Shown one piece after another: positions 19,863 to 42,960 of a stretch of 64,000 bases of DNA. Origin of the DNA: Hydrogenobaculum sp. 3684. GTDB taxonomy: Bacteria > Aquificota > Aquificia > Aquificales > Aquificaceae. The DNA is taken from assembly GCF_000213785.1 (NCBI RefSeq), contig NC_015557.1:558001-622000 (forward strand), read 5' to 3'. The number at the start of each line of letters is the position of its first letter. The stretch's first letter is position 1. A program made the translations under genes and the position numbers. The notes under the pieces were generated by a model. That model was not told the origin of the DNA, did no database searches, and saw only the letters and a program-made list of their open reading frames with translations.

Positions 19863-20345
19863 ATGGCAGAGGAACAAGTAAAAGAAGAAGGTAAACAATC
19901 AGGCGGCAAGAAAAAACTAATTTTTATACTGATACCGGCGCTTCTTCTCCTGATAGGAGGAGGAGCCGGCGCTTACTTTTTCCTAACACATAAAAAAAAG
20001 GAATCAACAAAACAAATGGTTGTAGCACCACAAAAGCTTGGTGTGATGTATAACCTAGGTTCTTTTCTAGTAAACTTAGCCGATAAAAACGCAAATACTT
20101 ATGCAAAAGTATCTATTACATTAGAACTATCAAACCAAAAGGTTGAAAAAGAAGTTGTAAAACGATTACCAATCATAAAAGATGCCGTTATAAATTTGCT
20201 TAGCTCAAAAACCTACGATGAGATAAGAACTCCTGAAGGAAAAGAAGAGTTAAGGCTAGAACTCATCAAAAGAATAAATGCAATATTGGTTACCGGTGGA
20301 GTACAAAACATTTACTTTACACAATTTATAGTACAATCTATGTAG
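19863..20345 (+). CDS. fliL: Flagellar basal body-associated protein FliL
   Basis: FliL surrounds the stator units at the inner membrane and modulates torque. The 160-residue protein has a short basic, Glu-rich cytoplasmic N-terminus and one transmembrane helix at about residues 19-42 (LIFILIPALLLLIGGGAGAYF). The periplasmic domain contains the family pattern KLGVMYNLGSFLVNLADKN. Its C-terminus ends VQNIYFTQFIVQSM, resembling the FliL ending V-x-x-V-x-F-T-x-F-(V/I)-(V/I)-Q. It sits between flgE and the fliO-like gene. Confidence 0.9.
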   Translation: MAEEQVKEEGKQSGGKKKLIFILIPALLLLIGGGAGAYFFLTHKKKESTKQMVVAPQKLGVMYNLGSFLVNLADKNANTYAKVSITLELSNQKVEKEVVKRLPIIKDAVINLLSSKTYDEIRTPEGKEELRLELIKRINAILVTGGVQNIYFTQFIVQSM

Positions 20346-30761: not shown

Positions 30762-30791
30762 ATTATTATTATAAAGCAAAAACAACCATTT

Positions 30792-30833
30792 GTATAAGTT
30801 CAGATAGACTATGAACACAGAGTGGTTTACCAT
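30792..30833 (+). repeat. IS-like terminus, type 1 (left copy)
   Basis: The segment begins GTATAAGTTCAGATAG and continues ACTATGAACACAGAGTGG. An inverted near-copy lies at 34272-34314, where about 37 of 42 positions agree. The core TATAAGTTCA-n-TGAACA is shared with the other termini in this island (34175, 32980 and 41695 ends). It starts about 30 bases upstream of the gltX start, so it marks the left edge of the island. Confidence 0.7.
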
Positions 30834-30879
30834 GTTTCAAATGTCTGTCTTCTTAAAAGATACTTTACTCACGATGTAA

Positions 30880-31030
30880 AAATGCTTCCAGCACACTAGA
30901 GCGATAGAATCGCATTTTACTTCGAGGCAAGATGAAAGAACAGGCACATACAATGTAAGAAATGCTAAAGCACACTAGAGGGGCATCAGTGTATTTTAGA
31001 GCTAAAGAACAAACAAGTCTGCCACGATTT
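30880..31030 (+). repeat. Two tandem structured repeat units and an 18-bp dispersed repeat
   Basis: The unit pattern is hairpin GCGATAGAATCGC (30901-30913), then CATTTTA, then GAACAGGCACA, then TGTAAGAAATGCT followed by AAAGCACACTAGAG. A second, degenerate unit follows at once (TATTTTAGAGCTAAAGAACA) and ends in the 18-bp repeat ACAAGTCTGCCACGATTT (31013-31030). Near-copies occur at 32651-32785 and 41161-41480. The repeat region runs into the 3' end of the coiled-coil gene on the other strand. Confidence 0.7.
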
Positions 31031-32491: not shown

Positions 32492-32980
32492 AGACTTGTC
32501 AATAACTTTTTGTGTCTCATAAAAAAATATCCTACTGAACATTTGCAAAACTTCATATGAGGACCCTTTTAATGCAGGAACTGGCTTACTCCACTTATTG
32601 TTCTTTAAAATATCTCTCTGGACAAGGATATTTATTTCAAGAATCTCAGCAGAGCGGTTGGACCGCATTTTACTATTGCGTGGCATACTTGTCGTGGGTT
32701 GACAAGGGAACAGGTACTGGTAGTGTAAGAAATGCTACAAGCAAAACGATGTAAGAAATGCCTTTGGCACACTAGCCTCTTGAAGAAGTACATAGAAAAA
32801 TATAACTTTGTAAGACCTCATTGTTCGTTAGGTTATAGAACACCTGCTGAAGTAGCTTACAGATATGCCACGGTTCGTGGTAATAGTGGAAAGAATTCCG
32901 AGGTGGTCCTAGATAATGTGTTATAATTTTTTTGTATGTATGTGTTCACGATGTAGTGAACTTGTACAACTTATACAATT
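32492..32980 (+). mobile_element. DDE-transposase IS remnant, copy A
   Basis: The segment from GACTTGTCAATAA to the terminus near 32980 is repeated in the same orientation at 41010-41696 (copy B). Near its 3' end, 32783-32926 encodes LLKKYIEKYNFVRPHCSLGY followed by RTPAEV, the conserved C-terminal signature of integrase-core (IS3/IS481-like) transposases. The 5' part holds no open transposase, only repeat units and dispersed 18-bp copies, and is in pieces. It ends with GTTCAC-GATGTA-GTGAAC, a perfect 6-bp inverted repeat shared with copy B. Confidence 0.7.
32783..32926 (+). pseudogene. Transposase C-terminal fragment
   Basis: About 47 codons in one frame read LKKYIEKYNFVRPHCSLGYR and then TPAEVAYRYATVRG. 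N-F-x-R-P-H-x-(S/A)-L-G-Y-x-T-P-A-E is the end of the rve-type DDE transposase domain. No start codon or upstream catalytic domain is in frame. The tail AYRYATV is encoded by a copy of the 18-bp dispersed repeat (32859-32876), so even this fragment carries an insertion. Confidence 0.7.
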
Positions 32981-32995
32981 CGGATTAAAATATGC

Positions 32996-33135
32996 TATAA
33001 TATTTACATAGCCATTAGGGCTTATTGAGCTTCTTAAGTTTTTCTTAAGAGCTGGCCGTACTTCAATAGCTGAATAAGTGTAGAGAGTTTTTACATACTT
33101 TTGATAACCCCACGGCATTTTTAACTTTTTTAATT
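32996..33135 (+). ncRNA. Possible small structured RNA before the CRISPR array
   Basis: TATAAT at 32996-33001 is followed by sequence with a strong hairpin, AGCTTCTTAAG-TTTTT-CTTAAGAGCT (about 33030-33054). GCC/GGC pairing brackets it, and then CCCC/GGGG flank a T-rich stretch (33107-33140) that could terminate a transcript. No reading frame is convincing. No -35 box is obvious. It could instead be part of the right flank of the IS remnant. I tested it for an anti-repeat and saw none. Confidence 0.25.
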
Positions 33136-33190
33136 AGGGGTTTTAGTGAATTGTTTATACAAAAATAAGTTTTATTATCCTTCCAACTTA

Positions 33191-33285
33191 TTGTCTGACA
33201 AGCAATTAATTTTGCCGTAAAACCGTAATTACATAAAACCGTAAAACCGTAATTACGGCAAATTTGTCAAAGGCTTGTTAGACAA
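33191..33285. repeat. Long nested inverted repeat with internal short tandem repeats
   Basis: The outer arms TTGTCTGACAAGC and GCTTGTTAGACAA pair with one mismatch. The inner arms TTTGCCGTAA and TTACGGCAAA pair perfectly. Between them the unit AAACCGTAATTAC and its short form AAAACCGT are repeated. The whole 95 bases could form a cruciform or a long RNA hairpin. It lies about 130 bases before the CRISPR array. It could be a tiny transposon end pair, a recombination site or a terminator. Confidence 0.6.
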
Positions 33286-33369
33286 TGATTTAAACTTGAT
33301 AACGGTACACTAAACTTTGCAGAATCTGGCATTTTCGGAAAATTACCTTCATTTGCGAGGGGTACCCCC

Positions 33370-33398
33370 TTGACGAAACCATTGATACACTATATAAT
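33370..33398 (+). promoter_or_regulatory. Consensus sigma-70 promoter facing the CRISPR array from the left
   Basis: TTGACG (33370-33375) and TATAAT (33393-33398) are separated by exactly 17 bases. A transcript would begin near 33405 and enter the first repeat at 33419. This is the best promoter in the array region, but it reads the repeats in the direction opposite to that expected from their GATGAAAC end. Confidence 0.6.
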
Positions 33399-33418
33399 TT
33401 TAGGAGTAGTGATTTCTG

Positions 33419-34105
33419 GTTTCATCTGAACCGTGTGGGATATAAATAACAAAAGCAGAATCATAGGGCTTCCAGCGAACCCTGGTTTCATCTGAACCGT
33501 GTGGGATATAAATATAAGTATGAAGCGTATGAATATATTATACCTGATACGTTTCATCTGAACCGTGTGGGATATAAATAGTCTCTTCCTCTTGTTGTTT
33601 GAAGCTGATTGAAGCCAGTTTCATCTGAACCGTGTGGGATATAAATGAATACAGAGTTTGGGTTGCTAAGGATTTGCTTTCGGGTTTCATCTGAACCGTG
33701 TGGGATATAAAGTATTGACCTGGATTCTTTTCAAATGTGGTGAGTATGGGTTTCATCTGAACCGTGTGGGATATAAAGTGCTTTCTTGGATCCAATGTTA
33801 CTTCAAAATTAAATTGTTTCATCTGAACCGTGTGGGATATAAAGTATAGTAATTCTTCAGAGTTTGAAATTTTCTCTGACGTTTCATCTGAACCGTGTGG
33901 GATATAAAGTTCAATTTTTGGTGTAGTTACTGATGCTTTAAACTTTGTTTCATCTGAACCGTGTGGGATATAAAGTCGCTTTGTGATTTTTGTATTCCTG
34001 CGATATCTCCATGTTTCATCTGAACCGTGTGGGATATAAAGGATTTTGGATCTGATGTATGGCAATTTATAGATCAGGTTTCATCTGAACCGTGTGGGAT
34101 ATAAA
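33419..34105 (-). CRISPR. CRISPR array, 11 repeats and 10 spacers
   Basis: The 28-bp repeat begins GTTTCATCTG and ends GGGATATAAA as written on the plus strand. All 11 copies are identical over 28 bases. Starts are 33419, 33485, 33551, 33618, 33684, 33750, 33816, 33881, 33947, 34013 and 34078. Spacers are 37-39 bp. The base following the repeat is T after repeats 1-4 and 11 and G after 5-10, so the true unit is probably 29 bp. On the minus strand the repeat ends AGATGAAAC, the usual 5'-handle type of type I-B repeats, so I assign minus as the likely crRNA strand. The cas operon lies immediately to the right. Confidence 0.97.
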
Positions 34106-34138
34106 TTATATATACCTCCCAAACTTGCGTTTATATTT

Positions 34139-34167
34139 AAAATACTACAACACAATTAACTTGACAA
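34139..34167 (-). promoter_or_regulatory. Candidate leader promoter on the minus strand
   Basis: Reading the minus strand, TTGTCA (34162-34167) and TATTTT (34139-34144) are 17 bases apart. They would drive transcription into the array from its right end, with an AT-rich leader of about 30 bases before the first repeat. It is weaker than the plus-strand promoter at the other end but agrees with repeat polarity. Confidence 0.4.
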
Positions 34168-34174
34168 TGCTTTT

Positions 34175-34314
34175 TATAAGTTCAATATATCGTGAACACA
34201 TAAACCTTGCTTATAAAACGTGGCATGCTCGTCATATGATAAGTATTTGTTAAAAAGATAGGTATCTGAAAAGTGGTAAACCACTCTGCATTCATAGTCT
34301 ATCTGAACTTATAC
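34175..34314. mobile_element. MITE-like 140-bp element between array and cas6
   Basis: The left end TATAAGTTCAATATAT (34175 onward, with CGTGAACACATAAACC) and the right end, read on the minus strand from 34314, GTATAAGTTCAGATAG, share the TATAAGTTCA-n-TGAA core in inverted orientation. The interior has no gene but contains an inverted copy of the 18-bp dispersed repeat (34215-34232). It looks like a non-autonomous element or two IS ends left after deletion. It separates the array leader from the cas promoter. Confidence 0.6.
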
Positions 34315-34321
34315 ATACTGT

Positions 34322-34351
34322 TTGATTAGCTTTTATGGTTTTTATTATAGT
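34322..34351 (+). promoter_or_regulatory. Candidate promoter of the cas operon
   Basis: TTGATT (34322-34327) and TATAGT (34346-34351) are separated by 18 bases and lie about 45 bases before the cas6 start, downstream of the MITE-like element. GGGGGA at 34384-34389 is the likely ribosome binding site. Confidence 0.45.
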
Positions 34352-34398
34352 CAAATAAATTATTCACGTTACTATTAGTAAAATGGGGGATCTATAAA

Positions 34399-35196
34399 AT
34401 GAGGGTAAGAATAGTGCTTAAAACAGATGAAATGCCACTTTTATATAGGCATAGGATTATATCTTTAATTAAAGAGGCACTTATGAGGTCCGATAAGGAT
34501 TATAAGGAATTTTTGTACGATGGTAAGATAACAAAACCCTTTACCTTTAGCTTGATGTTTCCTAGAACAAAAGAATTTGTAAATAAAAAGGTTATTATAA
34601 ATAGAAATTTTGAAATAGAGGATAAAGTAGCTTTAATAAAGGATGGGTTTGTAAGCCTTTTTATATCTTCATCAGATTATAGGTTTATGATATCTCTTTT
34701 TACCGGATTAAAAAAGATAGGGAGTTTTGATTTTAGCTATGGTGATTGCATGCTCGTTGATGGGAAATCTATTAATCTTGAAGTAAAATCTATTAGCGTA
34801 TTAAATGAAAAAGTGATAAATAATAACTTTGCTGTGTTTAAAACAATGTCTCCAATAGTTTTAGAAGACAAGGATGATAAACCTATAATATTTTTAGATG
34901 ATAATTTTGAAAAAGAGTTAAATGAAATAATGGATAGAATATTAAGAAGTCAAATTATCAGAGGTTTTGGTCTTAAAAGGCATTTGGAGTTTGAACCTAT
35001 AAAAATGTCGAAACAGGTTATAAAGCATACCCTGAAAGATTTTAGGGAAAAAACAGGAAAACCTATAATGTATATAACTGGAAATACTGGAATTTTTAAG
35101 CTTTCAGGAGATGCTGAGGACTTGAATATGCTATATAAAATAGGTATAGGCAATAGAACAGGCCAAGGCTTTGGAATGTTGGAGATCTTGAAATGA
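34399..35196 (+). CDS. cas6: CRISPR repeat endoribonuclease Cas6
   Basis: Cas6 cuts the pre-crRNA within each repeat, leaving the 8-nt 5' handle. The 265-residue protein has the two ferredoxin-like (RAMP) folds expected. The C-terminal glycine-rich loop GIGNRTGQGFGML matches the Cas6 pattern G-x-G-x-x-x-x-x-G-(F/L)-G. A candidate general-base histidine occurs at about residue 30 (LLYRHR). The first ATG at 34399 has GGGGGA upstream. It opens the cas operon and overlaps cas8 by 4 bases. Gene order cas6-cst1-cst2-cas5-cas3-cas4 is the Tneap-type I-B order. Confidence 0.9.
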   Translation: MRVRIVLKTDEMPLLYRHRIISLIKEALMRSDKDYKEFLYDGKITKPFTFSLMFPRTKEFVNKKVIINRNFEIEDKVALIKDGFVSLFISSSDYRFMISLFTGLKKIGSFDFSYGDCMLVDGKSINLEVKSISVLNEKVINNNFAVFKTMSPIVLEDKDDKPIIFLDDNFEKELNEIMDRILRSQIIRGFGLKRHLEFEPIKMSKQVIKHTLKDFREKTGKPIMYITGNTGIFKLSGDAEDLNMLYKIGIGNRTGQGFGMLEILK

Positions 35197-36860
35197 GGTA
35201 CTCGTTGATAGGTAGTTTTCAATACGATTTGGGAATATATGGTTTGAAAAAGATATTAGATTTTTTTGAAGAGCGCTATGCTACCGATGGCAATTTTTAT
35301 ATAGAATTAGATAAGGATCCTGAACAGATACTGGAACTAGTAATATTAAGACTTGTATATCTTAATGAACCAAAGTATTTCCTGGACAAAATAATTGACG
35401 AATTTTCTAAAAATAAAAATAAAAAGATTAAAGAAAAATTTGAAGAATCAAACGAATATATTGACGATAAACTAAGAAAATACAAAGAGAAGTTTGATAA
35501 ACTTATAAAGGAGCAAAAATCTCTGAAGAAGATCTTAGAAGAAGAAGATAATCTTTCTGATTTTATTTTTAATATTTTCCAAGAAGTGCTTGGTGAAAAA
35601 GTTGCTTATAGAAAAGAAGACATCAAGGATATATTGTATAGTAAGTCGGTACGTCTTTTAAACAATATAATTTTAAACTTTCAAGCTGATATGAGAGCCA
35701 AAGGTGAGAAAGTTCTAGAAAAAGCCCGTCAAAAGCTAAAACTAAGCGAAGATGCAGACAAAGAGCGCATTTGCTCTTTTTGTGGGCAAAAAGGGGCATT
35801 TAGTATAGCTAGGGATAGGTTTTTCTTTGCTCCTTCCCATTTTAATGCTTTCTGGGAAGATAACCCAAGTATATATGCGTGTCCTTATTGTATTGTTTGC
35901 AGCTTTGCTATTTTTGAGTCATTTACATTTTTGAATAGTAAAAACGCCATAGTAATTTATAAACCAAACTTAAAAGACTTAGAGCAACTTAACGATATTT
36001 TCTTAAAAAAGAGACTTGAGAAAAACAACATTGCTTTTGGGGATGTAGTTGAAAACATAATAGAATATGAGAAAATGAAATTAAAGAAAGATTTAATACC
36101 TGAAGAAATTCAGGTGATAGAATTTAACCTTGATAGTAAGAACCCTAGCATTGAGTTCTATATTCTAATGGACAAAACTATAGAGAATATTATTGCTATA
36201 GAACGACAGCTGAAAAATTTGTATGAAAATCACAGAGATGCCTTATATGGGTCAATAAAACAAGGTGACACAGAATATAAGATAGATTTATCAAAAGAAA
36301 TCATAAAATATATAAGTCAAAATCAAAAGCTTATATATTTAGTACAACGGTATTCAAGACTTGGAATAATGGCTGAGATATATAGACAAAAGGAGGATGA
36401 AAATCCACCAATTAAGGGGTTTTATATAAATGTGTTGCTTAAGATTTTGGAAATGCACTTTAAGTTGGAGGGTATCGGTATGAACTATTATGAAGTTTCT
36501 AAGGAGTTTGGGCAGTTGCTAAGAGGAAAAGTAAAGAAAAAAGTAACAAAAGTAAACGACGAGACTAAGCAGGAGAGTATAGACTGGAACACGTTTGGCA
36601 ACAGAATAATACAACTGTCAAACTCATTTTTAGATGCATCAAAAGGCAACTTTCAACAGTTTATGGAGACTTTATCTAGGGTGATAATAAGTTACGATGT
36701 AGATATTGACAACAGCTTGCTTAAGGTATTAGACAAAACTAACTATAAAGAGATAGCCACAACTATAGCCTTGAGTTTGCTTGTGAGAAAAGAAAAAGAC
36801 GAAAGAGTGAATAACTCTAATAACTCTAATGAAAGAGTGGTTGCTGAAACTACACTTTGA
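35193..36860 (+). CDS. cas8: Type I-B Cascade large subunit, Cas8/Cst1 (CXXC-CXXC type)
   Basis: The large Cascade subunit recognises the PAM and helps recruit Cas3. The 555-residue protein is a highly diverged member. It carries CSFC near residue 190 and CPYC near 228, which together give the CXXC-CXXC zinc motif of the Cst1 branch. A coiled, lysine-rich stretch occupies residues 85-120. The middle section RYSRLGIMAEIYRQK and a helical C-terminus follow. Assignment rests on the paired CXXC motifs and on position between cas6 and cas7. It is coupled to cas6 by ATGA overlap. Confidence 0.82.
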   Translation: MRYSLIGSFQYDLGIYGLKKILDFFEERYATDGNFYIELDKDPEQILELVILRLVYLNEPKYFLDKIIDEFSKNKNKKIKEKFEESNEYIDDKLRKYKEKFDKLIKEQKSLKKILEEEDNLSDFIFNIFQEVLGEKVAYRKEDIKDILYSKSVRLLNNIILNFQADMRAKGEKVLEKARQKLKLSEDADKERICSFCGQKGAFSIARDRFFFAPSHFNAFWEDNPSIYACPYCIVCSFAIFESFTFLNSKNAIVIYKPNLKDLEQLNDIFLKKRLEKNNIAFGDVVENIIEYEKMKLKKDLIPEEIQVIEFNLDSKNPSIEFYILMDKTIENIIAIERQLKNLYENHRDALYGSIKQGDTEYKIDLSKEIIKYISQNQKLIYLVQRYSRLGIMAEIYRQKEDENPPIKGFYINVLLKILEMHFKLEGIGMNYYEVSKEFGQLLRGKVKKKVTKVNDETKQESIDWNTFGNRIIQLSNSFLDASKGNFQQFMETLSRVIISYDVDIDNSLLKVLDKTNYKEIATTIALSLLVRKEKDERVNNSNNSNERVVAETTL

Positions 36861-36897: not shown

Positions 36898-37884
36898 ATG
36901 AAGCTAACAGGTGTTTTTGTGATTGAAACTGGTGTAGTGAACAGGGGAGATGGCATAGGCAATATTGCCACTGTTAAAAAGATAACGACTCCCGAGGGTA
37001 TAAAGGTTTTCTTCTCACCTGTATCTTACAAGAGGGCTCTTTGGAGATCTCTGCAACAAAATAAGCATTGGAAAGAACCAATGGTGTCTAGGGAAGGTGG
37101 TGTTGTTCAGAGAACGGGTACTGTGATAGACAGCGAGGAGTTTGATTTTGCAGGAACCATGATTGCAAAACCAAAGTACGAAAGAGAGTCTGTTTTGCTT
37201 ATAGATAATGGCATCTCTGTAAACAACTATTTTGGAGACATGGAGTTTATGACTAACGCAGCTATAGCAAATCTATATGGAGAGAATGAAACTAATATTA
37301 TAAACAAAGAAATTTTCTACGGTATTTACATAATGCCATTTGGTATAGAAGTGGATAGAATAGGAGTTCAAGAAATAAAAAATTTGGATACTGAAATAAA
37401 CGATTCAGATAGCGTTGAAGATAAGATAAAGAAAGTGTACGAAGCTTTTAAGAAAGTGGACAAAACTTTGAAGATTGATAATATTGATACTCGTATAAAA
37501 GAGTGGGTAAATATAGTAGAAAGCATAGAGTATGATAAAGGTAAAAAGGTTACTAAGATAGTTTTGACAAAAGAAGAAAGGAAAAGAAGGTTAAAAGATC
37601 TTTTGGAGGGTATGGGAGAGCTTAGTAGAAGGATGGAAGGCTCTGAGAGAAATTTAAGCCCATGTTTTTCAGTGTTTTCACTTGAATATGCGTCACCTAA
37701 GTATATGTTTTTGATAAAAGACTACATAAACAAAAAAATTTTAGAAGGCGGGTATTTGGATTTTAACGAACTAAAAGAAGAGCTTGAAAATCTTGCGAGA
37801 CAAGAACAAAAAACTCTAAAGATAGCGGATTATAAAAACTATAGGATTGTGGTAAACGAGATTGTAAAAGATATTTTTGGTTAG
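36898..37884 (+). CDS. cas7: Cascade backbone protein Cas7/Cst2/DevR
   Basis: Cas7 forms the helical backbone on the crRNA. The 328-residue protein starts MKLTGVFVIETGVVNRGDGI, the DevR/Cst2 opening in which a strand is followed by N-(R/V)-G-(E/D)-G. It continues with SPVSYKRALWRSLQ and the NAAIANLYG segment. The RAMP-fold core is followed by a helical C-terminus. ATAGGAGGTT lies ahead of the ATG. It is 37 bases after cas8 and 7 bases before the cas5 ATG. Length is usual for Cst2. Confidence 0.9.
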   Translation: MKLTGVFVIETGVVNRGDGIGNIATVKKITTPEGIKVFFSPVSYKRALWRSLQQNKHWKEPMVSREGGVVQRTGTVIDSEEFDFAGTMIAKPKYERESVLLIDNGISVNNYFGDMEFMTNAAIANLYGENETNIINKEIFYGIYIMPFGIEVDRIGVQEIKNLDTEINDSDSVEDKIKKVYEAFKKVDKTLKIDNIDTRIKEWVNIVESIEYDKGKKVTKIVLTKEERKRRLKDLLEGMGELSRRMEGSERNLSPCFSVFSLEYASPKYMFLIKDYINKKILEGGYLDFNELKEELENLARQEQKTLKIADYKNYRIVVNEIVKDIFG

Positions 37885-37891
37885 ACTAAAG

Positions 37892-38563
37892 ATGCTTAGG
37901 TTAGAAATACGTCAAGAGAGTGCACACTTTAGGATCCCTACTGTAGGTAATCCTTTTTTAAGCTATCCTTTGCCTCCTCCTTCAACAGTTTATGGTTTTC
38001 TAAGAGCTATTACAAACTATGAAAGTATAAATTTTGAAAATACAAAACTTTCTATTCAAGGAACTTACAAAGGTGTCTCTTTTGAAAAGGAAAGGCTTGT
38101 TTTGCGAACTAAAACTGAAACAAAAACAAATATAATACCAATACAAAAACTTCACCAATGCAGTTGGGTAGTGCATATCAAGTCTTCTGAAGAGTTTGAA
38201 AACAAGATAATAAACGCTCTTAAAAACACTTCAAGGATTTTAAGCCTTGGAAGAAGAGAAGATTTAATAATAGATTTTAACGCCTTTAGAGTTGAAGAAA
38301 AACCGCTTGATAAATCAAAGAAAATAGCACAAAAAACTACAAAAATTTATAAAGCATGGAATGAGAATGAAGATATAAAAGAAGGTAGTATCTTCAGGAT
38401 GGCTTTAGACACCATTGTAAATGAAAACAAGGAAATAATTGCTTATAAACAAATAAGTTTAATTTATATGGGTGTAAAAAATTTAATTCCATCTCAATTT
38501 TACGATAAGAAACAACATTCTAAGACCTACGATGGGGAATATTTGATCGAGTGGATAATTTAG
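37892..38563 (+). CDS. cas5: Cascade subunit Cas5 (Cas5t type)
   Basis: Cas5 caps the 5' handle of the crRNA. The product is about 223 residues from the ATG at 37892. An upstream TTG at 37877 would overlap cas7. The N-terminus LRLEIRQESAHFRIPTVG leads into PLPPPSTVYGFLRAITNY, the Cas5 signature (P-(P/S)-x-(S/T)-x-x-x-G-x-L-x-(A/R)). The following G-rich ILSLGRREDLI segment is also typical. The stop overlaps the cas3 GTG start by 13 bases. Confidence 0.9.
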   Translation: MLRLEIRQESAHFRIPTVGNPFLSYPLPPPSTVYGFLRAITNYESINFENTKLSIQGTYKGVSFEKERLVLRTKTETKTNIIPIQKLHQCSWVVHIKSSEEFENKIINALKNTSRILSLGRREDLIIDFNAFRVEEKPLDKSKKIAQKTTKIYKAWNENEDIKEGSIFRMALDTIVNENKEIIAYKQISLIYMGVKNLIPSQFYDKKQHSKTYDGEYLIEWII

Positions 38564-40842
38564 AAAATTCCTTGAAAGAACATCTCAAAAATTATTTTGC
38601 TAAAAGCGATAGGGAAACAACTTTAGAAAAACATATAAATGACTTACTTGATCAATTTAGGATATTTTTGGATAGATATCCAAATGTATTAAATGAAAGA
38701 GAGAAAATGTTGTTAGAAAAAGCTATTGAATATCATGATTATGGTAAGTTGAATAAACTATTTCAGGATAAAATGAAACAACCTACTCGACGCGACGATA
38801 TAGTACCGCATCAATTTTTGTCCCCTTTATTTTTGATATCCCGTGAAAATAAGTTAAGTGACAAAGACTTACTTATAATAGTATATTCTATTGTTAATCA
38901 CCACCAACGGGGACAAGATAAATATTTAGAAAAAATAGAGAATGGTGTAAATCGTTTATTTACGGAAATGGAGAGTTGTTTTTCAATGTTTTTTCAACAT
39001 ATAGGTTTTAAAGGATTATCTAAAGACACAAAAGAGCGATATAAAGATTGTCTTCACGAAATAGCGACAAACATAAAACCTATAGAAATCTTAAACAAAA
39101 TGCTTTATGAAGGTAATGAATTTATAAAAACTCTGATAAAAGTAAGCGGGCTTCTTATAAGAATAGATCATGCTGCATCTGGTGATGGTATGGAAATAGA
39201 GGAACCTTGTTTAGAGGGTGATAGAGAAGAGATATTCTTAAACTATCTTAAAAAACTTAAAAAAGATAACAATGTTTCACTAAAAAGATTTCAACAACGT
39301 TTTAAAGACTGTGAAAATACAGTTTTAGTAGCAGATACTGGGCTTGGGAAAACTGGTCTAGCTTTTCTCTGGTCAAGGAGAAAAATGTTTTATGTGCTGC
39401 CAAATAGAACTTCCACAAATGCAATGTATGAAACTTTTAAGCAAATAGCTGGAGAAGATAAGGTAGGACTTTTACACTCTACAAGTATGTTTTATATTTA
39501 TGAGAAAAGTAAAGAAGATGTGGATTATACAATACTTAGAGATCATGACAATACAAAGAATCTTTCAAAGCCTATTACAGTCAATACAGCGGATCAACTT
39601 TTTGAAGCGGTTTTTAAATACCCTACCTATGAGAAAATCTATGCTACTTTAAGCTATTCTGATGTAGTAATAGACGAAATTCAAGGTTTTGATCCTGCAC
39701 AAATTGTTCCAATTATAAAACAAATAAAAGAAACAACCAAGTTAGGCACCAGATATCTTATAATGACCGCAACGCTTCCTGGAATAGTCAAAGAAAAATT
39801 TGAAGAATTAGGCTTTAATGTGGTAGTAGACGATCCCGATACCATAGATAAAACAAAAAGGCATAAAGTATGTTTTGTAGAGAAAAGCATACTTTCGGAT
39901 ATTGAGAGTATTGTTAAAAAGGCTAAAGAGAATAAACACGTTTTAGTTATACTTAATACGGTAAGTGAAGCGCAAAATATTTATAAGAAGTTAAGAGATT
40001 CTTATGAGAATGTAAAGCTATTGCACAGCAGATTTATATGGAAAGACAGAATTGAAAGAGAGCAACAAATTCAAAAAGACTATAAACATAATGAAGGTGT
40101 AATATGGGTTACTACGCAGTTGGTAGAGGCGTCCCTTGATATAGATTTTGATGTGCTCTTTACCGAGATTGCACCGGCAGATAGCCTTATTCAAAGAATG
40201 GGAAGAGTACACAGGCACAAAAAACATGATTACTTGGGAGACTACAACGTTTATATTTATACAGAAGTTGATGAGAAGAAAACGTCTCGTATATATGAAA
40301 AAGTGTTAAGAGATAAAAGCATAGAGCTTATAAAAGAAAATTTAGACAAGGAAGATTATCTAAACTCCTATTCAAAAAGGAAAATAGTGGAAACTTTATA
40401 CTCAGAAGAGTTTTTGAAAAGAATAAATAGCAAATATCTTGAAAAATGGAAAAGGATTGAAGAAATCCTTAATTCTAAATGGGAAAATGTATTCAAGACA
40501 GCTCAAGAGATGTTTAGAGATATATTTACCGTTGAGGTTGTTCCATATATGTTTAAAGAAATTGTACAGGGATTGGAAAAAGATTATTATAATACAAAGA
40601 AAATAAATGATGAACAAAAAAGAAAGATAGAAAGAGTAGGTATCCTAAAACAAATTAACGATTACAAGGTTCCTATACCACTATATTGGTGGCTTTCACA
40701 GAATAAATCTAAATTCGAATATTATTCTAGATTAGGCATAAAAATATTGGGTAAGGAATTTGAATATGACTCTGACTTAGGCATAATAATAAATAAAGAG
40801 ACTTTGCAAAACTCCTATGTCGATGAGGATATTTTTATATGA
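38551..40842 (+). CDS. cas3: CRISPR effector nuclease-helicase Cas3
   Basis: Cas3 unwinds and degrades DNA marked by Cascade. The 763-residue protein fuses an N-terminal HD nuclease to a superfamily 2 helicase. HD motifs are AIEYHDYGK (near residue 65) and IVNHHQRG (near 113), with IRIDHAASGD near 207. Helicase motifs are ADTGLGKTG (motif I, near 265), VVIDEIQGFD (DEIQ form of motif II), MTATLPG (motif III), and TQLVEASLDIDFD with LIQRMGRVHRHK (motifs V-VI). All key residues appear present. It starts with GTG in an overlap with cas5, and it overlaps the cas4 fragment by 4 bases. Confidence 0.95.
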   Translation: MDNLENSLKEHLKNYFAKSDRETTLEKHINDLLDQFRIFLDRYPNVLNEREKMLLEKAIEYHDYGKLNKLFQDKMKQPTRRDDIVPHQFLSPLFLISRENKLSDKDLLIIVYSIVNHHQRGQDKYLEKIENGVNRLFTEMESCFSMFFQHIGFKGLSKDTKERYKDCLHEIATNIKPIEILNKMLYEGNEFIKTLIKVSGLLIRIDHAASGDGMEIEEPCLEGDREEIFLNYLKKLKKDNNVSLKRFQQRFKDCENTVLVADTGLGKTGLAFLWSRRKMFYVLPNRTSTNAMYETFKQIAGEDKVGLLHSTSMFYIYEKSKEDVDYTILRDHDNTKNLSKPITVNTADQLFEAVFKYPTYEKIYATLSYSDVVIDEIQGFDPAQIVPIIKQIKETTKLGTRYLIMTATLPGIVKEKFEELGFNVVVDDPDTIDKTKRHKVCFVEKSILSDIESIVKKAKENKHVLVILNTVSEAQNIYKKLRDSYENVKLLHSRFIWKDRIEREQQIQKDYKHNEGVIWVTTQLVEASLDIDFDVLFTEIAPADSLIQRMGRVHRHKKHDYLGDYNVYIYTEVDEKKTSRIYEKVLRDKSIELIKENLDKEDYLNSYSKRKIVETLYSEEFLKRINSKYLEKWKRIEEILNSKWENVFKTAQEMFRDIFTVEVVPYMFKEIVQGLEKDYYNTKKINDEQKRKIERVGILKQINDYKVPIPLYWWLSQNKSKFEYYSRLGIKILGKEFEYDSDLGIIINKETLQNSYVDEDIFI

Positions 40843-41054
40843 ATGATATTGATGCAATGAGTTTTGATTATGAAGGATTGAAAATATTTAGGCTAAACGG
40901 TACGAAGGTGAACTATTATATTATATGTAAGAGAAAGCTTTGGCTTTTTCATAGGGGACTGACTATGGAGAATGGTTACAACAAGGTTAAGCTCGGTCAA
41001 ATTCTTCAGAGACTTGTCAATAATTTTGTGTCTCATAACAAAATCTCCTGTTGA
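40839..41054 (+). pseudogene. cas4: Truncated cas4 (N-terminal fragment)
   Basis: Cas4 is a RecB-family iron-sulfur nuclease that trims prespacers during adaptation. The frame begins normally, coupled to cas3 by ATGA overlap. It reads LNGTKVNYYIICKRKLWLFH then RGLTMENGYNKVKLGQIL, which is the Cas4 N-terminus with the first cluster cysteine in ICKRKLWLF. At about codon 58 it runs into the left end of IS remnant copy B (41010) and stops after 71 residues. The nuclease core and the three C-terminal cysteines are absent. No cas1 or cas2 follows anywhere in the window. Confidence 0.88.
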
Positions 41055-41160
41055 ATATTTGTAAAACTTCATATGATAACCTTTTAAATGTAGAAACTGG
41101 TTTACTATACTTATTATTCTTTAAAATATCTCTCTGAACAAGGATATATTATTTCAAGAA

Positions 41161-41480
41161 TCTAAACAGAGCGATAACATCGCATTTTAATTCTAATAAA
41201 CAAAACAGTCGCTCAGAAACTATGAGAAATGCCTTTAGCACACTAGAGCGCTATAGGGGCGTGGCATACTTGTCGTGGGTTGATAAAAGAACAGGCACAC
41301 ACGATGTAAGAAATGCTACGCACACTATAATGGAAGTGAATTTATGGGAGAGTTTGACAAATACTTGCAAGAAATAGGGATAGAACAGAGCGCTATTAGC
41401 GCATTTCAGAGCCAAAGAACAGGACAAGTCTGCCACGGTTTCAAAGCCGCTCAGGAGATGTGAGAAATGCTAAAGCACGC
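41161..41480 (+). repeat. Cluster of hairpin repeat units inside IS remnant copy B
   Basis: Two complete hairpins, GCGATAACATCGC (41171-41183) and GCGCTATTAGCGC (41390-41402), are each followed by CATTT(T/C)A. Downstream come the shared pieces GAGAAATGC, GTAAGAAATGCTACGCACAC and GAGAAATGCTAAAGCACGC (41224, 41307 and 41462 regions). Matching hairpins elsewhere are GCGATAGAATCGC (30901) and GCGGTTGGACCGC (32654). The stem base pairs differ but remain complementary in each copy. Confidence 0.7.
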
Positions 41481-41511
41481 TTGCTATAGCTATCCAAGGA
41501 CCCTAAGACCT

Positions 41512-41529
41512 ACAAGTATGCCACGGTTT
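41512..41529 (+). repeat. 18-bp dispersed repeat, type copy
   Basis: ACAAGTATGCCACGGTTT. Other copies lie at 31013-31030, 32859-32876, 41424-41441, 41570-41587 and 41651-41668 on the plus strand. Inverted copies lie at 32679-32692, 34215-34232 and 41260-41273. In this copy it sits between AAGACCT and CATTATTCG, which are contiguous (AAGACCT-CATTGTTCG) in IS remnant copy A at 32812, so the unit looks inserted. Confidence 0.8.
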
Positions 41530-41702
41530 CATTATTCGTTAGGTTATAGAACGCCTGCTGGAGTAGCTTACAAGTATGCCACGGTTAATGGCAATGGTAT
41601 AAAGAATTCCGAGGTAGTCCCATGATAATGTGGTATAATTTTTTTGTGGGACAAGTATACCACGGTTTATATGTTCACGATGTAGTGAACTTATACAGTT
41701 AC

Positions 41703-41739: not shown

Positions 41740-42960
41740 ATGCTAAAAGCATATAAATACCGCATATATCCAAATGAAGAGCAAAAGACAATCTTTGCTA
41801 AAACTTTTGGCTGTGTTAGATTAGTATGGAATCTAATGCTTAATGAGAAGCTTACTGCATATAACAATAAAGAAAAAATACCACAAGTTACACCTGCCAA
41901 ATACAAATCAGAGTATCCATTCTTAAAGGAAGTAGATAGCTTAGCGCTTGCTAACACGCAACTAAACTTAGAAAAAGCATTTAAAAATTACTTCAAAAAT
42001 CCAAAACATTTCGGACTTCCTAAGTTCAAGAAAAAGAAAAACAAACAAGCATATACAACAAATAATGTAAATAACAATATTAAAATAGATTTTGAAAATG
42101 GATTGTTATACCTTCCAAAAATCAAAAACGGGATAAAGATAAAATTGCATAGAAAATTTGAAGGAAAAATAAAATCCGTTACCATAGTAAAAACAACATC
42201 TGGCTCATATTACGCTTCTATATTGGTAGAAACTGAAAATGTTAAGAATAAAGTAAAAGAACCTAAAAATAAAACTTGTGGAATAGACTTAGGATTAAAA
42301 GATTTTGCAATAATAACAAATGACACAGGAATACATAAAATAGAGCATCCAAAATACTTAAGAAAAGCTGAAAAGAGATTAAAGAGATTACAGAGAGCAT
42401 TATCAAGAAAACAAAAAGACTCTAAAAACTTTGAAAAGGCAAGAAAAAGATTAGCCATTCAGTATGAATATGTTTCAAATGCAAGGAATGACTTTCTACA
42501 TAAACTATCCAAAGCCATTATTGACGATAACCAAGTCATAGTGGTGGAGGACTTGAATGTTAAAGGCATGCAAAAAACAGACCTTGCCAAGCCTGTATCA
42601 GACAGCGGATTTGGAACATTTGTTAGATATCTGGAATACAAAGCAGATTGGTATGGTAGACAGCTTATAAAGGTGGATAGATTTTACCCATCATCAAAGC
42701 TTTGCAACGTCTGTGGATACAAACACAACGAATTAAAACTGTCTGATAGATATTGGCAATGTCCTATATGTGGAACATACCACGATAGGGATATAAACGC
42801 ATCTATAAATTTATACAAGGTAGGGTTGGAACGACCCGATTTCAAGCCTGTGGAGCATGCTCTGGTGGATGACCGTATCTCGAAAAGATACCTAAAAAGC
42901 CATCATGTGATGAAGCAGGAAGCCACACCTTCTATAAGGTGGGGTAGTTCACCGTTATAA
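41740..42960 (+). CDS. tnpB: TnpB RNA-guided nuclease (IS200/IS605 family OrfB), intact
   Basis: TnpB uses an omega RNA from the element's right end to cut DNA and promote transposon retention. The 406-residue protein is complete. The N-terminal helical and wedge part begins MLKAYKYRIYPNEEQK. RuvC-I is GIDLGLKDFA (near residue 182), RuvC-II is VVEDLNVKGM (near 269), the zinc finger is CNVCGYKHNELKLS with CPICGTYHD, and RuvC-III is DRDINASINL. The last 40 codons overlap the presumed guide RNA. No TnpA gene is near, so mobility would need a TnpA in trans. It lies between the cas-adjacent IS remnant and the VKOR gene. Confidence 0.95.
   Translation: MLKAYKYRIYPNEEQKTIFAKTFGCVRLVWNLMLNEKLTAYNNKEKIPQVTPAKYKSEYPFLKEVDSLALANTQLNLEKAFKNYFKNPKHFGLPKFKKKKNKQAYTTNNVNNNIKIDFENGLLYLPKIKNGIKIKLHRKFEGKIKSVTIVKTTSGSYYASILVETENVKNKVKEPKNKTCGIDLGLKDFAIITNDTGIHKIEHPKYLRKAEKRLKRLQRALSRKQKDSKNFEKARKRLAIQYEYVSNARNDFLHKLSKAIIDDNQVIVVEDLNVKGMQKTDLAKPVSDSGFGTFVRYLEYKADWYGRQLIKVDRFYPSSKLCNVCGYKHNELKLSDRYWQCPICGTYHDRDINASINLYKVGLERPDFKPVEHALVDDRISKRYLKSHHVMKQEATPSIRWGSSPL
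42820..42960 (+). ncRNA. Presumed omega RNA at the right end of the tnpB element
   Basis: The 3' end of tnpB is a chain of hairpins: GTATCT-CGAAA-AGATAC near 42874, CATCA-TG-TGATG near 42901, and CCACACCTT-CTAT-AAGGTGG near 42923-42942, followed by GGTAGTTCACC. This terminal architecture, with a stable hairpin followed by GGTAGTTCAC, is what I know from the right ends of IS605/IS1341-type elements that make omega RNAs. The guide segment would be the DNA just beyond 42960. Exact ends are not determinable here. Confidence 0.5.

Follow-up and report, generated by a model that had tools for sequence, protein, structure and literature searches.

A type I-B CRISPR array of Hydrogenobaculum sp. 3684 very probably carries its leader on the left and may be a hybrid of two type I-B systems

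CRISPR arrays can be extended in trans by adaptation genes that belong to another system: such acquisition is known between types in Flavobacterium columnare (II-C and VI-B; available part of PMC8092290), and the feeding of type III arrays by type I modules has been inferred (available part of PMC8482600). The array described here resembles these cases in that it has no cas1 or cas2 of its own, a complete adaptation module being carried elsewhere in the genome; it departs from them in that different types are involved there, whereas here two I-B systems, seen in sequence only, share one leader and differ in repeat family. It lies in a window of 64,000 nucleotides (positions 558,001 to 622,000 of NC_015557.1, a single contig of 1,552,775 bp, C1 below), and coordinates are those of the window unless a contig or locus is named.

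Two complete loci serve as comparisons. One, L049 of genome G052, belongs to a family that we take to be Hydrogenothermaceae-like, and has the order cas6–cas8b–(95-aa frame)–cas7–cas5–cas3–cas4–cas1–cas2, followed by leader and array, all codirectional. The window locus has effector proteins in the same order, and the same repeat family and repeat orientation: cas6 (34399–35196, 265 aa; 58% identity to L049), cas8b (35193–36860, 555 aa; 49%), cas7 (36898–37884, type I-B; 68%), cas5b (37877–38563; 56%), and cas3 with HD and helicase parts (38551–40842; 59%), all on the plus strand. The co-occurrence of cas8b with cas7b, cas5b, cas6, and cas3 identifies the locus as type I-B; Cas8b itself has no Pfam or NCBIfam match, its identity coming from a PADLOC Cas8b match (1.2e-16). 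Unlike L049, the window array precedes cas6 rather than following cas2, its leader is of another family, and the adaptation end of the locus is missing: cas4 is an N-terminal remnant (40839–41054, plus strand, with similarity to intact Cas4 stopping at about 41040), and tblastn with Cas1 and Cas2 of both L049 and the resident locus described below found neither gene in the window. A below-cut-off candidate for a cas2 remnant at 30775–30966, with two stops, was rejected, having no tblastn match with two Cas2 proteins and a translation that by eye resembles a mobile-element relic. The cas4 remnant is followed by a relic (41041–41697, two frames with no Pfam match) related to one on the far side of the array (32525–32968), in direct orientation and 79–84% identical in the longer segments; a 64-aa frame in the left relic scores just above the threshold for the rve_3 integrase core (27.4 bits against 26.5). 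A TnpB of the IS200/IS605 family is found at 41740–42960, ~0.7 kb past the truncated cas4.

The second comparison is the resident I-B locus of the same genome (C1:1075000–1094000, L017), in which a 51-repeat array sits downstream of cas3–cas4–cas1–cas2 and an interrupted cas6. It shares with the window locus a leader (91% identical over query positions 193–404) and an array codirectional with the cas genes, and differs in its complete cas4–cas1–cas2, its interrupted cas6 and its repeat, which is identical to the window repeat at 21/29 positions in the same orientation (16/29 reversed) and ends in GTTGAAAG on the strand corresponding to window plus. The genome has three PF01881-matching loci, of which the window cas6 alone is uninterrupted; the other two are L017:12533–13249 and L013:8429–9168. 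The resident locus also holds one 740-aa frame (L017:6385–8607) with Cas5b (residues 1–210) and Cas8b (375–727) matches, an apparent Cas5–Cas8b fusion. With only one cas2 above cut-off in the genome (C1:1087242), and one of two cas1 copies C-terminally short (C1:339682, L013:9671–10851, truncated at the start of an array with a third type of repeat, ...CCTATAGGGGATTGAAAC), the module beside the 51-repeat array is the one complete set of adaptation genes found in the genome.

The window array (33419–34106, plus strand) comprises 11 repeats of 29 nt (GTTTCATCTGAACCGTGTGGGATATAAA followed by G or T), starting at 33419, 33485, 33551, 33618, 33684, 33750, 33816, 33881, 33947, 34013, and 34078, and 10 unique spacers of an even 36–38 nt. 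All 11 28-mers are identical, and the repeats vary only at position 29, which reads TTTT GGGGGG T: T in repeats 1–4 (33419–33646), G, the usual form in relatives, in repeats 5–10 (33684–34041), and T again in the trailer-end repeat 11 (34078–34106). The first-pass annotation had reported the bases of repeats 1–10 as the exact 28-mer positions confirm, and had missed repeat 11. The same annotation had found the array's polarity contradictory, placing a usual crRNA handle, and hence transcription, on the minus strand from the right, with a near-consensus promoter entering from the left.

The end motif ATTGAAA(N) has been named as a direction signal (available part of PMC4869251), and orientation tools may contradict one another (available part of PMC8482600). 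The window repeat scores 5/7 against ATTGAAA on both strands, so the motif cannot decide. The proposed minus-strand handle, GATGAAAC, is present as described; its role as a handle finds no support among relatives, whose homologous repeats keep the plus-strand 3′ end AAAG and vary at the minus end (GATGTAAC, GATGGAAC, GATAAAAC, or GACAAAAC). The G form of the window repeat differs from the repeat of G001 at position 5 only, and that change turns GATAAAAC into GATGAAAC. On this comparison of repeats, GATGAAAC is a decoy, simply the complement of the repeat 5′ end GTTTCATC and not retained in relatives. A leader on the right, with minus-strand transcription from 34139–34167, the handle GAUGAAAC and spacers gained at the right end, would draw on the resemblance of GATGAAAC to ATTGAAAC and on Rfam DR43, which matches the minus strand of 6/11 repeats at 35.6 against a cut-off of 35; we set the strand of the Rfam match aside as orientation evidence.

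A right leader was also our own initial reading, the three sister arrays of this genome (repeat ...GGGTTAAGAA; C1:346962 with 3 repeats, 927966 with 18, and 930706 with 7) having sequence in common from the first nucleotides past their right ends. This right-flank conservation is real (z 2.9, 5.4, and 5.9 among the sisters), and recurs in a subset of G059 arrays (z up to 12.9) and in one G060 pair (z 28.4). The right flank of the window array is unlike those of the sisters (z 0.0 to 1.0), and none of the four family arrays of the genome has a promoter above 9/12 in that flank (best 8–9/12); because the conservation stops short of the window and no such promoter exists, we read the shared right flanks as trailers duplicated along with their arrays. 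The minus-strand promoter candidate within the window trailer (34107–34398, plus strand), TTGTCA-17-TATTTT at 34139–34167, was rejected: shuffling produced at least its 9/12 in 431 of 1000 cases for the 100 nt nearest the array and in 876 of 1000 for the whole 292-nt right flank. The earlier proposal of transcription from the right through this site finds no support, the promoter being no better than chance and the flank unlike that of the sisters.

The left flank behaves quite differently. Its core (33207–33418, plus strand) is common to the 51-repeat array of the resident locus and to two full-length sister leaders, and its upstream part (33015–33206, plus strand) recurs at three sister arrays. 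The whole stretch 33015–33418 has copies in the same genome at C1:929111–929515 (96%) and C1:346546–346959 (92%), a partial copy at C1:931130–931403 (92%, query 1–265 only), and the resident copy at C1:1088542–1088761 (91%, query 193–404), which sits directly before 51 identical repeats GTTTCTAATTAACCGTGTGGAGTTGAAAG; weaker short matches, three in this genome and three in G003, cover only parts of query 1–116. At two sister arrays and the 51-repeat array, the copies hold the same orientation and the same distance to the array within 2 nt. The promoter TTGACG-17-TATAAT (33370–33398, plus strand), 20 nt before repeat 1, scores 11/12. Dinucleotide shuffling reached this value 4 times in 1000 for the 100 nt next to the array and 17 times in 1000 for all 404 nt of the flank; all three other full-length leaders carry TTGACA-17-TATAAT (12/12). 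The near-consensus left promoter of the first reading is thereby upheld as a part of a recurrent leader, and the flank is conserved with its promoter pointing into the array. The sister array of 7 repeats (L016:10706–11130, C1:930706–931129) is decapitated: ~139 nt at the array end of its leader are gone, and the promoter with them.

Relatives point the same way, among them L049, where leader and array follow cas2 in a single direction. Among 26 arrays of the window's repeat family, drawn from 9 of 17 matching genomes (those of G059 incomplete, with C13 left out, and one array being a wholly degenerate cluster, the second of L088), the right end repeat is the more divergent in 22 and the left in none, with 4 ties; degenerate repeats at the leader-distal end have been described (available part of PMC4869251). 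An earlier count that lacked some degenerate copies (in one L016 array it registered 6 of 7 repeats) gave 21 right, 0 left, and 5 ties, to which the sign test of 9.5e-7 applies; the recount moved only G001 from tie to right, its "right end" being a run of N. Arrays of one genome are non-independent, and by genome 7 of 9 show the right end decayed, G042 having only ties. The window array is itself among the ties, with one mismatch at each end repeat, so its polarity rests on relatives, leader, and block pattern. Within genomes, left flanks are conserved (z of at least 7) in 38 of 49 array pairs and right flanks (z of at least 5) in 11 of 49, a G050 pair being excluded for N; the 11 pairs whose left flanks are not conserved involve the degenerate L088 cluster (8) or the decapitated L016 array (3). 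In GTTGAAA-type arrays, whose repeats end in GTTGAAAC/G or GTTAAAAC, the right end is more degenerate in 8 of 12 and the left in none, with 4 ties (14 loci from 4 of 30 matching genomes, counting arrays of 3 or more repeats). The leader flank common to the 51-repeat array and the 26-array comparison are what overturned the right-leader reading, against which it also stands that relatives' degeneracy accumulates at the right end and that T-G-T at position 29 would take two changes; we consider it extremely improbable.

The order of bases at position 29 carries its own polarity signal. Random assignment of the base within repeats 1–10 would give the T/G block order with a probability of 0.0095 (computed post hoc, with the pattern already seen). 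A second block is found in array L091 of G048, where position 29 reads AAAAAAAAAAAAGGGGGA (A ×12, G ×5, A; p 0.0003), again with the block on the leader side; the argument of the first reading, growth by copying an altered left-end repeat and hence a left leader, therefore holds. Repeats 1–4 would then be a block copied from an altered leader-proximal repeat, and imply about three acquisitions after the G-to-T change. In type I-E systems, the last repeat base comes from the incoming spacer. If position 29 had such an origin here, the blocks would be uninformative on polarity, and the differing base at the trailer-end repeat of several arrays would suit this; G at every interior copy in most arrays does not, and contiguous blocks in the window and in L091 fit copying. 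Because of the L091 block, we dropped this origin as very improbable. Nor do we give much more credence to a T block produced by recombination with another array instead of stepwise copying: leader and trailer sequences are indeed common to several arrays of the genome, but a search of it at up to 3 mismatches found no other ATATAAA-repeat array.

We conclude from these comparisons that the array very probably stands in ordinary orientation, with its leader on the left, its crRNA strand plus and its growth at the left end. Transcription would run on the plus strand from the promoter at 33370–33398 through the 11 repeats, in the direction of cas6–cas8b–cas7–cas5–cas3; Cas6 cleavage within the plus-strand repeats would give the crRNAs a 5′ handle near AUAUAAAG or AUAUAAAU, and new spacers would be inserted at repeat 1. 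The first repeat of the array, then some seven spacers long (losses ignored), may have mutated at position 29 from G to T, three later acquisitions copying the T to give TTTTGGGGGG, with repeat 11 probably the old trailer-end repeat bearing its own end variant. Growth end and transcription strand are separate matters, transcription towards the leader being possible in type II-C arrays (available part of PMC8092290). Transcription of both strands, in which the leader would yield plus-strand crRNAs and antisense RNA would come from the right, is unlikely: antisense CRISPR RNAs are mentioned as a subject in connection with Sulfolobales (available part of PMC4390879) and weak promoter-like matches lie on each strand, but the right end has no minus-strand promoter above chance, and the 10 promoter-like sites observed in 32500–34800 compare with 10.2 expected. 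Both-strand transcription or a reversed array, which the first-pass annotation had offered to reconcile its signals, is required by nothing in the sequence.

The leader and the repeats appear to have different affinities. Scored against 11 leaders that precede GTTGAAA-type arrays in three other genomes, the last 80 nt of the window leader reach z 1.7 to 4.8 (median 3.5), as against −2.5 to 1.6 (median −0.04) for the 20 leaders of its own repeat family that are readable outside this genome, the degenerate cluster included (median 0.04 for an earlier subset of 14); in the printed alignment, the window leader and that of G035 share a box AAATTA.CTTCATTTGCG. This contrast is modest but consistent support for a hybrid array. 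We tentatively propose, at a little under an even chance, that the hybrid arose by leader capture, Hydrogenothermaceae-like I-B repeats and effector having come under a resident, Aquificaceae-type I-B leader; the effector cassette would have been stripped of cas1, cas2, and the greater part of cas4 next to the relics, and resident Cas4–Cas1–Cas2 would still add spacers in trans through the shared leader and the repeat start GTTTC. Conversely, the two systems may be mutually dependent, since the other two cas6 copies are interrupted and that of the window is not. The false GATGAAAC handle arises from the very base by which the repeat agrees with the resident repeat start (GTTTC here, GTTTT in G001). 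In G003 and G000, an array of another repeat type has at its end a lone repeat (L047:7830–7858, minus strand; L048:7698–7726, plus strand) with a leader-like stub and a TTAAGAAG end, the 60 nt before and 71 nt after it being the same in both species; given these common flanks, the leader–repeat combination may predate both species. Among the matches listed in our literature search, no title concerned leader exchange between two I-B systems.

The spacers were examined for targets. In the 51-repeat array, the spacer next to the leader (L017:13793–13831) is self-targeting: it matches the cell's chromosome at 39/39 positions (window 20097–20135), which would fit a recent acquisition, as expected for leader-end growth. 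The gene concerned is flagellar fliL (19863–20345; Pfam FliL), and the match is flanked by GCAAAT (5′) and CAAAAGG (3′). Against 50,697 phage records, the window, 51-repeat, and two G059 arrays gave no match, and the stretch of 18 and 7 repeats only four weak ones (E 0.3 to 1); two window 24-mers had no match in IMG/VR, and virus genomes approached through PolA yielded nothing useful. The last spacer has a 20-nt match in G052 that failed on extension and was taken as chance. Among the 39 listed of 53 matches classed as non-array, the two pursued were this one and the 39/39 self match; many of the others were arrays missed by the filter (L076). Spacers of Hydrogenobaculum matching viruses have been reported (available part of PMC7689252), so data from other sources should permit a PAM test.

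Orientation decides which spacers of this array are new and which strand guides interference. We found no paper on crRNA direction for the window's repeat family, as judged in part from search listings. The usual end motif, equal on both strands, leaves orientation undecided here, and it is leader recurrence together with the end decay of relatives that decides. The window array may be extendable in trans by the resident adaptation genes; with one leader, two repeats, and a single complete module found, the genome would offer a natural test of whether Cas1–Cas2 follows the leader or the repeat.
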